Shown here piece by piece: positions 31,310-36,531 of a stretch of 36,531 nucleotides of DNA. Made by a program: the position numbers and the translations under genes. A model generated the notes under the pieces. That model ran no database searches. It was given only the letters and a program-made list of their open reading frames with translations, and was not told the DNA's origin. The first letter of the stretch is position 1. Each line of letters starts with the position of its first letter. Source of the stretch: Fidelibacterota bacterium (GTDB taxonomy: Bacteria > Fidelibacterota > UBA2242 > JAOZSR01); NCBI GenBank assembly GCA_029939575.1, contig JAOZSR010000028.1, positions 1 to 36,531 on the forward strand, read 5' to 3'.

Positions 31310-32285
31310 TTAACTTGCTGTTCTTTTTCCTGCTTTTCTGTCGGTATATTGCTTTTTGATCCATTGACATGTTGGTTTCATACCTTCGAAAATAGTCATT
31401 GTTGGTTCCCAGCCAAGAAGTTTTTTTATATAAGTATTATCACTGTTTCTACCAGCAACACCTTTGGGTTTATCAAGATTATATTCACGCTTGATTTTTA
31501 CACCAAGAATATCTTCGGCAATATCAGCCAGTTTATTAATTGAAATCATTTCGCCGGAGCCAAGATTGAGAGGAGTGGCAATTGTGTCACGGCAATGCAT
31601 AATCCGAAAAATTTCCTCTGTACATTCGTCAATATACATAAAACTTCTGGTCTGATTTCCATCTCTTTTTCCAGGAATACTTCCTCACATTTTTGCTCAC
31701 CAATTAATTTTTCCCATCCATATCCTCTCTCTGCATCTGCAGGGTAAGCATCGCTTTCTTTCAGAGCAGTAACATCGTGAACCTGTTGTAATGTAGTATT
31801 ATAAGCACAGGCTGACGAAGAAAAGAAATATCTTGTGACACCACTTTTTGATGCTGCTGTTACCATATTATCATTGATTCTGCTACTATTTATCAGGCAA
31901 TCAACTCTAGGAGTTTCAATAAATCCCATTCCACCCATATCAGCAGCAAGATTATATACTTTAACAGCACTTTCACATATTCTTTCACAATTGTCATAAT
32001 CTTTTAGGTCAAAAGACTCAGGTTAGTGACACCCGGTGTGGTCTGATACCATTCATACAAAGGCTTTATATCAACAGCTAAAATATTGGCAAAACCTTTA
32101 TTTTTTAAAAATTTTACTAATCCACCAGCTCCAGTTATTACTATGCGGTTATTGGGATTCAATTTTTCACCATATTCGGTATCAATCATTTCAGATTCCG
32201 GCACAGGATCAGCAGCATTAAAATATTCCGGTTCTCAACCATTGGCTAATTTTTTTTTCAACATCTTTTCTTGTTGCATGTGACA
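31310..32285 (-). pseudogene. Decayed GDP-mannose 3,5-epimerase-like gene (SDR epimerase)
   Basis: Fragments in several frames together match GDP-mannose 3,5-epimerase, which would turn GDP-mannose into GDP-L-galactose/L-gulose. The ATG at 32285 opens MSHATRKDVEKKI, then a frameshift leads to NNRIVITGAGGLVKFLKNKGF, where about five residues of the GxxGFIG Rossmann loop are missing. A further shift near 32020 leads to VYNLAADMGGMGFIETPRV, FSSSACAY and KESDAYPADAERGYGWEKL (the YxxxK-type site reads YGWEK). A junction near 31663 loses about 45-50 residues of the substrate domain and changes frame again. The C-terminal part (NQTRSFMYIDEC, NLGSGEMISINKLADI, GVAGRNSDNTYIKKLLGWEP) ends at 31310. At least three disruptions rule out a working enzyme. 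An assembly error is possible but would need several independent indels. Confidence 0.85.
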
Positions 32286-34617: not shown

Positions 34618-34702
34618 GTTTCAAAGGTATTATTAGAGAAGATTTTACAATTATTCACTTTGGCTGTATTAGATATGCATGATTAAAGATGTGTAGTGGC
34701 AA

Positions 34703-34735
34703 GCATCGGTGATGCCGATGCAAATCCGATTTTTT
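34703..34735 (+). terminator. Probable terminator of the flavin reductase-like gene
   Basis: A 7-bp stem GCATCGG (34703-34709)/CCGATGC (34715-34721) with loop TGATG is followed after eight bases by a T-run (34730-34735). An alternative pairing ATCGG/CCGAT (34726-34730) directly abuts the T-run. It lies between the convergent reductase and antitoxin genes, and the T-run overlaps the antitoxin stop codon. Confidence 0.5.
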
Positions 34736-35021
34736 ATTTTATGTGAGTCGAATTTCGTTCAATTAATTTACCAGATAAATATTTATGTAGTATGCTTGTA
34801 ACCATTGTTTGATATGGTAAGCCCTCTTCAACTGATTTTGATTTTAATTTTATCAAATCTCTTTCAGATATTCTTATATTTATTCGTTTATTTTTTAGAA
34901 TTGTATTTCTGGCTATTAGACTGTATTTCTTTTTATCACTTTCAATATTAGGTGAAGAAATCCACTCATCATTTTCAAAAGATTTAATAATATCTTCTTC
35001 GTATTCTGTATATTTATTCAT
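34734..35021 (-). CDS. BrnA/CopG-type antitoxin
   Basis: A 95-residue DNA-binding antitoxin. The ribbon-helix-helix part is the C-terminal half: KNKRINIRISERDLIKLK forms the beta-strand and first helix, and GLPYQTMVTSILHKYLSGKL the second helix, as in BrnA/CopG-antitoxin proteins. The acidic N-terminal half (YEEDIIKSFENDEW) probably binds the toxin. Its start overlaps the toxin stop by eight bases, so translation is coupled and, as in other BrnTA loci, the toxin gene comes first. The antitoxin probably represses the shared promoter at 35305-35333. Confidence 0.83.
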   Translation of the reverse strand: MNKYTEYEEDIIKSFENDEWISSPNIESDKKKYSLIARNTILKNKRINIRISERDLIKLKSKSVEEGLPYQTMVTSILHKYLSGKLIERNSTHIK

Positions 35022-35298
35022 TTATATTTCTCCTCAAATATTTCTTTGTTGCATTACGACTGGGAATAATCGTTTTTAGAAAAACTTTCTTATCATCTTC
35101 AACAAAAGGAATTAAATAAACATAGTTTTCATGTTCAATAATAAAAATAGATTGATTTGGATATTTTTGCTTATTCGGATTATCAATTTTATCTAAAAAT
35201 TTTTCTTCGTGTAAATAATTTACAATTTCTTCAAAAGAAATATTTCTTTCTCTTTTTAATTTTTGATTTTTTTCTTCATTCCAATCAAAATATTTCAT
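35014..35298 (-). CDS. BrnT-family toxin (RelE-like ribonuclease)
   Basis: A 94-residue BrnT-type (DUF497) toxin, expected to cut RNA and stop growth unless bound by its antitoxin. Family features: KYFDWNEEKNQKLKRERNISFEEIV at the N-terminus (the WDxxKxxxNxxKHGVSFEEA pattern), a central beta-strand region, and C-terminal KTIIPSRNATKKYL (the RxISARxATxxE pattern). The ATG lies only six bases after the -10 box, so the transcript is probably leaderless or nearly so; no Shine-Dalgarno is present. The pair sits immediately beside an integron attC site, a common place for toxin-antitoxin cassettes. Confidence 0.82.
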   Translation of the reverse strand: MKYFDWNEEKNQKLKRERNISFEEIVNYLHEEKFLDKIDNPNKQKYPNQSIFIIEHENYVYLIPFVEDDKKVFLKTIIPSRNATKKYLRRNINE

Positions 35299-35304
35299 GC
35301 CTAT

Positions 35305-35333
35305 ATTTTAATTTATTGTATGCCTATTGTCAA
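35305..35333 (-). promoter_or_regulatory. Strong promoter of the toxin-antitoxin pair
   Basis: On the minus strand a perfect -35 TTGACA (35328-35333) is followed after 17 bases by TAAAAT (35305-35310), a -10 with 5 of 6 consensus bases. The toxin ATG begins six bases downstream, so the first transcribed base should fall at or next to the start codon. Confidence 0.75.
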
Positions 35334-35358: not shown

Positions 35359-35497
35359 GTATAACAAACAAGCGTGAGCGACGCCGAACGCCGAATCGTC
35401 ATTAGCCAGACGCTTTAACGCAAAATCATCGAAACGAGCCTTGTGCCACAAGTTTAGCGCAACAGTTAAAGGCGTTCGATCCACGCAGATGTTAGAC
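35359..35497 (-). other. attC: Integron attC recombination site (139 bases)
   Basis: Read on the minus strand, the site opens with GTCTAAC (RYYYAAC consensus, rc of 35491-35497) ten bases after the HEPN gene stop, and closes with GTTATAC (near GTTRRRY, rc of 35359-35365). Between them imperfect inverted repeats pair GCGTG with CACGC, CGAACGCC with GGCGTTCG, and TTTAAC with GTTAAA, leaving a central loop with a small CTTGT/ACAAG hairpin. This is the R''-L''/L'-R' layout of attC sites that fold as single strands for the integrase. Its richer GC content contrasts with the flanks. Length is near that of Vibrio-type repeats. Confidence 0.82.
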
Positions 35498-36484
35498 ATT
35501 TATAGTTTATTCCTTGATATCTAGGCAGTTAGTGTTGTTTGCAATAATTTGAACGATTTTTGTGACTAAAGGATATAAATGCATCCATAAAATATTTTCT
35601 GAAATATTCTGACCTCTATGAAATAATTTATGTCTCTCCTCTATAATATTTTTTATATTTTTTTCTTCTAATTGAACCTCTTTTCCAAAAAAAACATAAT
35701 TTTCCAAGCCGATTTTTTTTAATAAATTCATTAATTTTATAACTCTAGATTCCTTTGTTCTGTTTAACAAATTTCTTATTGTACCTTTCTTTATATCATC
35801 CTCGAATTGATTTGATAATTGAGTTATTATTTTTTGTTCATTATTATCAAAAAGTTTATTAGAGTTGAACATGTTTTTATATAAATTAGATTCTTCTAAA
35901 TATTCAATGATCAAAAATAAATGAAAATATTTAGATTTTATATTCTCTGCTTTTATAGCATCATAATAAAAATTTAATATTTCGAAATAATGAGCATTAA
36001 TTATCTCATTAGCATCAATTTCAACATTTCTTTTGCAAGAAATAGAAATACTATCGCTTACTGTTATTGTATCTGAAAAAGTTATTTCATGTTCATTTTG
36101 AGAATAATTATCATGATTTTCTTTAATTATTAAATTTGGCCAATCGATTTCGATAAAACTTGTACCATAATGTGGACTGTGTTCCTTTTTATTTATTAAA
36201 AATGTTATGTATTGGGAAAACTCTTTAATTAGTTGGATTATTTCAGATTCTGTGAAAGGTTTTAATGTATTGATTTTCAATTTATATATACTTTTATCAA
36301 CTAACTCAATTTGAAATATTGTATTATCAATTTTAAATGGATTTTCTATTTCTAGCTGCGAATTTATATTTATAATGTTTCCCGCTTGATATCCAATTTG
36401 TGTTATTTTGTTTGAACATTTTATTACGAAATTAACTTCAATAATTTTTTTCATATATCAATCTCAATTTGGTTTATTGTCTAA
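35365..36484 (-). mobile_element. Integron gene cassette carrying a HEPN-domain gene
   Basis: The cassette runs on the minus strand from the core site GTTAGAC (rc of 36479-36485), through one gene with a 25-base leader, to the end of the attC site at 35359-35497. One gene, a short leader and a 3' attC is the normal cassette form. Boundaries follow the cut between G and TT in each core site. Confidence 0.68.
35507..36454 (-). CDS. HEPN-domain protein of unknown role (integron cassette)
   Basis: A 315-residue protein that I do not recognise as a named family. The N-terminal about 150 residues are beta-rich and without clear homology. The C-terminal about 150 residues are helical and end with IIEERHKLFHRGQNI, containing Arg274-x4-His279, the RxxxxH motif of HEPN ribonucleases. 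The overall layout (beta-rich N-terminus, C-terminal HEPN) resembles ApeA-like proteins that act in phage defence by cutting RNA. Being a cassette next to a toxin-antitoxin pair fits a defence or toxin role, which is inference. It is very AT-rich, with many Asn, Ile and Lys. The gene has no strong Shine-Dalgarno. Confidence 0.6.
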   Translation of the reverse strand: MKKIIEVNFVIKCSNKITQIGYQAGNIININSQLEIENPFKIDNTIFQIELVDKSIYKLKINTLKPFTESEIIQLIKEFSQYITFLINKKEHSPHYGTSFIEIDWPNLIIKENHDNYSQNEHEITFSDTITVSDSISISCKRNVEIDANEIINAHYFEILNFYYDAIKAENIKSKYFHLFLIIEYLEESNLYKNMFNSNKLFDNNEQKIITQLSNQFEDDIKKGTIRNLLNRTKESRVIKLMNLLKKIGLENYVFFGKEVQLEEKNIKNIIEERHKLFHRGQNISENILWMHLYPLVTKIVQIIANNTNCLDIKE

Positions 36485-36531
36485 CATATTATTAACCAAC
36501 TAAAATCCTTCAAAAAAAGTTTTCCCCAATA
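36479..36531 (-). other. Second integron core site (attI or attC, cut by window edge)
   Basis: GTCTAAC at 36479-36485 is GTTAGAC on the minus strand, the GTTRRRY core consensus and identical to the outer core site of the attC at 35497. The following 46 bases to the window end are AT-rich and show no L-box like the GCGTG and CGAACGCC of the first attC. This fits an attI site better than an attC. On the minus strand TTGAAG, 16 bases, TAATAT precedes the core and could be a cassette promoter. Confidence 0.45.

Follow-up and report, generated by a model that had tools for sequence, protein, structure and literature searches.

The window analysed here, 36,531 bases, is an entire contig (C132) of a MAG from an uncultured member of the Neomarinimicrobiota (Marinisomatota, FCB). 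The assembly comprises 3.79 Mb in 190 contigs and is 94.9% complete. Judged by a 734-aa transporter, its nearest named relatives are for the most part Candidatus Neomarinimicrobiota MAGs, and T9SS sorting tails fit an FCB lineage. Read on the minus strand, the right-hand part of the window presents a 315-aa ORF (35507..36454), a 139-bp attC recombination site (35359..35497), a brnT-like toxin gene (35014..35298) and a small partner ORF (34734..35021), in that order. The contig ends at position 36531, at the start of the first of these cassettes, within the 3′ end of an attI-like repeat (36479..36531, minus strand) that continues into contig C147 and is referred to below as a pad.

The 315-aa ORF is of unknown function, with no Pfam or NCBIfam family match and no relatives among the searched genome contigs. 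Its TAA stop codon (35507-35509) lies nine bases from the R'' end of the attC; an earlier note on this DNA had likewise placed the element just after a stop codon. The brnT-like gene, in the next cassette, matches PF04365 with an E-value of 2.3e-7, just below the curated cut-off, and is preceded by a promoter-like TTGACA-N17-TAAAAT (35305..35333, minus strand) read directly from the sequence. It is overlapped by the small ORF, which has no family match in Pfam or NCBIfam and is presumed, from its position only, to be the brnA antitoxin. The two modules said to flank the element are real ORFs, the BrnT-like gene with its small partner on one side and the 315-aa ORF on the other. Elsewhere in the window, a terminator-like GC-rich hairpin near a T-run follows the small ORF (34696-34735), and a gene for an NAD-dependent epimerase is seemingly split into two overlapping ORFs, possibly by a frameshift (31310-31938).

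Sequence and structure of the attC site

On the minus strand the element reads GTCTAAC (R''), ATCT, GCGTGGAT..., ...CTCACGC, TTGTTT and GTTATAC (R'), an R''-L''-variable part-L'-R' layout. The R'' core (35491..35497) fits RYYYAAC exactly, and the R' core (35359..35365) has one mismatch against GTTRRRY, an identical R' being present in the arrays of genomes G215 and G235. The L'' box (35479..35486), with one extrahelical base (35482), pairs with the L' box (35372..35378) in our alignment A4. The element lies at the coordinates given in the earlier note, and the core sites and paired L boxes named there, together with the paired R boxes and an inner stem, satisfy the features by which attC membership is judged. 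The site has a GC content of 49%, occurs once in its own genome by BLAST, and is the top-scoring match of the window in a simple core-and-stem scan (18.9 versus 12.9 for the next, unrelated match). It shares with the attCs of Vibrio and other sedentary chromosomal integrons the R'' and R' cores, L boxes with an extrahelical base, an imperfect palindrome and a position after a stop codon, the 130-139 bp length of the present family lying near their upper range.

Single-strand DNA folding, proposed earlier as a check, gave limited support: the site folds only moderately better than shuffled versions, 12 of 200 shuffles folding equally well for the minus strand (z-score −1.7) and 1 of 200 for the plus strand. 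Comparison with relatives was more informative. An R/L/bulge/inner-stem structure is common to the window attC and three attCs in an array on contig C103 of genome G217; 90.8% of the cells in their alignment are paired, against 25-44% in slid versions, and the covariation score was equalled by 2 of 500 shuffles. The low minus-strand z-score would fit a chance palindrome, a terminator or an unrelated RNA element, an origin that is hardly credible in view of the covariance-model score reported below, the homologous array attCs, the location after a stop codon and the lack of any Rfam family for the site. BLAST gave no match in plasmids, and in phages only matches at chance level.

A plus-strand orientation, in which the AAC-to-GAC spacing fits classic attCs, was rejected because the sense genes of the G217 and G221 arrays settle the question for the minus strand, the one named originally. 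Judged by sequence, the element is a genuine cassette attC of an integron, read on the minus strand.

An order-specific attC family and a linked integrase in a relative

Searching 245 genomes of the phylum with the attC by BLAST led to two genomes of the same order, G202 and G217. The G217:C103 array contains three attCs of 130-133 bp with sense genes, each attC following a stop codon, and the window attC aligns with all three end to end on its minus strand. Two covariance models were applied: R1, a small generic attC model of our own built from 15 sequences (seven class 1/mobile attCs and eight same-phylum attCs), and R2, built from the three G217 attCs alone. Held-out classic attCs score 25-45 bits with R1, whereas the window attC reaches just 9.7 bits on the plus strand, at the wrong end, and 5.9 bits on the minus strand. 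With R2 it scores 39 bits (E 2.4e-6), the best match across its own 3.8-Mb genome. The covariance check suggested by the earlier note is failed with the generic model, whose score does not strictly define an attC, and clearly passed with the same-order one. Since the generic score is poor and the same-order score clear, the site is to be placed in an order-specific attC family, which differs from classic attCs in a sequence that a classic-attC model hardly recognises. R2 attCs are present in 16 of the 23 genomes of the order, with 1 to 34 in each (34 in G211 and 18 in G221), and at E ≤ 0.05 the family is absent from the other seven.

The same model finds two attCs (67.1 and 61.3 bits) directly behind an integron integrase gene on contig C17 of G221. 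This IntI has 325 aa, scores 456 bits against TIGR02249 (cut-off 265) and carries the IntI-specific insert; a G221 cassette also encodes a BrnT-like protein. Because R2 finds both the window site and these IntI-linked attCs, the window attC belongs to a family tied to a true IntI of the same order. The original proposal, that this is the attC of a chromosomal integron in a genome of the FCB group, is thus supported, resting on the R2 score and the structure shared with the G217 array. As a separate observation, half of this attC is present in degenerate form at the end of a contig in G202:C61 (L176 7120-7170), next to a Fic-like ORF and with 88% identity across 48 bases.

Further attCs, which the earlier note advised looking for, are likely at two places on other contigs, both of them weak: C83:697-793 (R1 27.1 bits, E 0.004), lying a dozen or so bases past the stop of a 368-aa ORF, and C137:87232-87361 (R2 25.7 bits, E 0.007). 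Weak R2 matches in C60, C147 and C150 were not accepted as attCs. An integrase gene, also to be looked for, was not found: no gene in this 94.9% complete assembly reaches the TIGR02249 cut-off, and the window contig stops at 36531. Three recombinases were rejected as IntI. That of C154 (94-930, minus strand), the best candidate, is a XerA-like tyrosine recombinase (NF040815, 247 bits) located at a contig end; it lacks the IntI insert and falls outside the IntI family yet close to it; those of C126 and C180 lack the insert or score below the cut-off. The criterion for a complete integron, an intI in the same genome, is accordingly not met in this assembly, nor is the CALIN criterion (two or more attCs within 4 kb and no intI) fulfilled in the window contig, where one attC is seen; contig C120 of G211 does fulfil it.

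The site could be a decayed, immobile attC remnant in a species without a functional integrase, as the R' one base off consensus, the low R1 score, the missing IntI and the degenerate relative in G202 would allow. Its L and inner stems are nevertheless intact, with compensatory changes, and its R' GTTATAC is found also in the IntI-bearing relatives G215 and G235. We consider this reading doubtful, though not to be dismissed.

Scattered attI-like pads

What the earlier note missed is an attI-like site that bounds the cassette on the side away from the attC. The pad preceding the window cassette has a GTTAGAC core (36479..36485, minus strand), the proposed insertion point and cassette start; the alternative that this GTTAGAC ends a preceding attC was rejected, as the repeat copies lack an R''/L palindrome and are attI-like instead. 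The first 55 bases of C147 are the last 55 of the window (36477-36531), and the repeat is also copied in C47, C51, C83, C96, C113, C137 and C187, the copies within the genome being 75-88% identical. They resemble two sites of relatives, the one next to IntI in G221 and the one before the first G217 cassette, with GTTTCTnnATnnAGAAAC units followed by ...TATGTTA. In G221 the order is intI, a 112-aa ORF without a family match, the pad site and the first cassette, which is the position expected of attI. In G217, where no intI was found, a remnant of the 112-aa ORF precedes the pad.

A sequence model of the pad site (R3) was trained on the sites of the window's genome, G221 and G217 together, so that matches there are partly circular. 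With palindromic duplicates removed, at least 8 distinct R3 sites were found in the window's own genome, 9 in G211, 9 in G221 (one of them the IntI-adjacent site) and 6 in G219, and one or more occur in 14 of the order's 23 genomes. An HMM made from the own-genome repeats only still recovered the pads of G221 (E 0.002) and G217 (E 7e-5, the match stopping at the core), with no matches on reversed sequence; these E-values are modest, and the palindromic units blur the strand of the pads. Across 19 aligned pads, conservation amounts to 1.2 bits per column immediately ahead of the core and 1.7 at GTT, and falls to about background after GTTA. A cassette junction should show such a profile, but a transcription start could account for it as well. 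A TTGACA-N17-TAAAAT promoter is clear in the pads of many relatives but not in those of the window's own genome, and RNAalifold gave no supporting covariation for a structured leader RNA.

Several genomes contain dispersed C-terminal stubs of the 112-aa ORF, and because some pad copies start inside this ORF, dispersal by duplication of an intI-proximal segment is suggested. ORFs of about 112 aa, without Pfam or NCBIfam matches, lie near intI in G221:C17 (L038 9083-9421, minus strand), G211:C153, G205:C269 and G202:C21; in G221 the last codons overlap the TTGACA-N17-TAAAAT promoter. The IntI genes of G219 (C86, L036 end) and G215 (C237, L039) have downstream attI-side repeats of GGATAAA type, unlike the scattered pads, and because of this difference the pads and the local integrase of these genomes may come from different integron lineages.

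When R1, R2 and R3 were run over the same stretches to pair pads with attCs, nine pads had an attC on the same strand 0.5-1.6 kb downstream: those of the window, G217:C103, G221:C17, G211:C120, C143 and C78, and G219:C88, C26 and C29. An opposite-strand attC at this distance was found at none of the pads. The G211 and G219 loci were selected by pads, not by attCs, and among their pads five with a downstream R2 attC were observed against 0.085 expected (P ~3e-8). On G211:C120, four R2 attCs come after the pad in alternation with genes. IntI is missing near eight of the nine attC-bearing pads, only that of G221:C17 adjoining it. The criteria for attI (a position at intI, a GTT crossover and variable cassettes after it) fit at G221:C17, and the remaining pads lie away from intI, the attI function of the window pad being an inference only. 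Among the pads with sufficient downstream sequence, more than half show no attC; the genomes are all MAGs and fragmented, and several pads of the window's own genome are at contig ends.

This fragmentation matters for a conventional account, in which the site is an ordinary attC, either of a CALIN or of a normal chromosomal integron that MAG assembly has broken up, and the repeats are pieces of a single array's attI region. The window contig does stop at the repeat, with its 55-base overlap with C147, no IntI is present in the assembly, and CALINs are inflated by draft assemblies according to the IntegronFinder 2.0 paper (PMC9024848). Pieces of one region would not be expected in separate long contigs with different neighbours, as on G217:C103, a 77-kb contig with the pad at 30 kb, and on G219:C88, a 53-kb contig in which the pad, at 47.4 kb, comes right after core genes (KDO transferase, FtsY-like, radical-SAM); nor do own-genome copies that differ at 75-88% identity look like one collapsed copy. 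We judge this account rather unlikely.

The attC may instead be real and the pads a dispersed promoter-bearing repeat, MITE-like or the promoters of one regulon, GTTA then marking a transcription start and not a crossover. Most pads are indeed just upstream of genes, the TTGACA-N17-TAAAAT stands at a fixed place in many pads of relatives, many pads have no attC, and two short pad copies precede genes in C137 of the window's own genome. Such a repeat would leave unexplained that the IntI-adjacent site carries the same sequence, that same-strand attCs are enriched downstream of pads, and that the G217 pad retains the terminal part of the gene located after intI in G221. It is an unlikely explanation, if one that deserves to be kept in mind.

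Proposed cassette loading at dispersed sites

An integron integrase binds the folded strand of an attC and joins the cassette to attI. We favour the reading, to which we assign a probability of roughly 0.7, that the window holds the attC of a captured cassette (the 315-aa ORF with its attC) at a scattered attI-like pad, loaded in trans by an IntI encoded elsewhere. The cassette sits between the pad, running on into C147, and the brnT-type toxin-antitoxin cassette; one IntI is proposed to recombine the folded attC with the GTTA of a pad, and in relatives an upstream promoter within the pad would express the cassettes. Recombination at the pads, service in trans and expression are all inferred, as is the supposition that the integrase gene of this genome is merely missing from the MAG, or has been lost.

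More generally, a single-locus integrase may load cassettes in trans onto many dispersed promoter-bearing attI pads, forming a distributed integron in which several cassettes would each be first in line and expressed simultaneously. This extension is tentative, and we hold it at somewhat less than even odds. Expression is usually limited to the first few cassettes of one array, a rule that would fail if the pads are dispersed, promoter-bearing and loaded in trans; CALINs would also gain a concrete source in this lineage.

The window attC itself is a known kind of site, and the scattered pads are what would be new. The short arrays described here are like CALINs in having attCs and cassettes without a neighbouring intI, and unlike them in beginning at a recognisable attI-like pad, the window contig showing one attC. 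Off-target insertion, intI loss and rearrangement have been proposed as CALIN origins, which are debated (PMC8618304). An integron typically has a single attI, located near its intI (PMC9024848). The pads resemble an attI with its promoter Pc in their GTTRRRY core point, the position taken in G221, after intI and ahead of the first cassette, and the upstream promoter in relatives, and differ in the many scattered copies per genome, an intI directed at the array and the intervening 112-aa ORF, whose family is unknown. In class 1 and class 2 integrons, Delta-attI-type cassettes likewise carry recombining attI pieces away from intI, but these are mostly 14-18 nt long, inside mobile arrays and downstream of an ORF (PMC12901181), whereas the present pads are long, upstream of cassettes and at separate chromosomal loci. 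In the literature searched, which excluded subscription literature, no paper was found that combines integrons with Marinimicrobia (plus attI), Marinisomatota or Neomarinimicrobiota, and the distributed-integron reading, its recombination step being inferred, seems new.

A chromosomal integron of the same phylum was also noted on G235:C24 (L047 9700-17866), with intI directed at at least four attC cassettes, which include a toxin-antitoxin-like pair and a transposase-like insertion.
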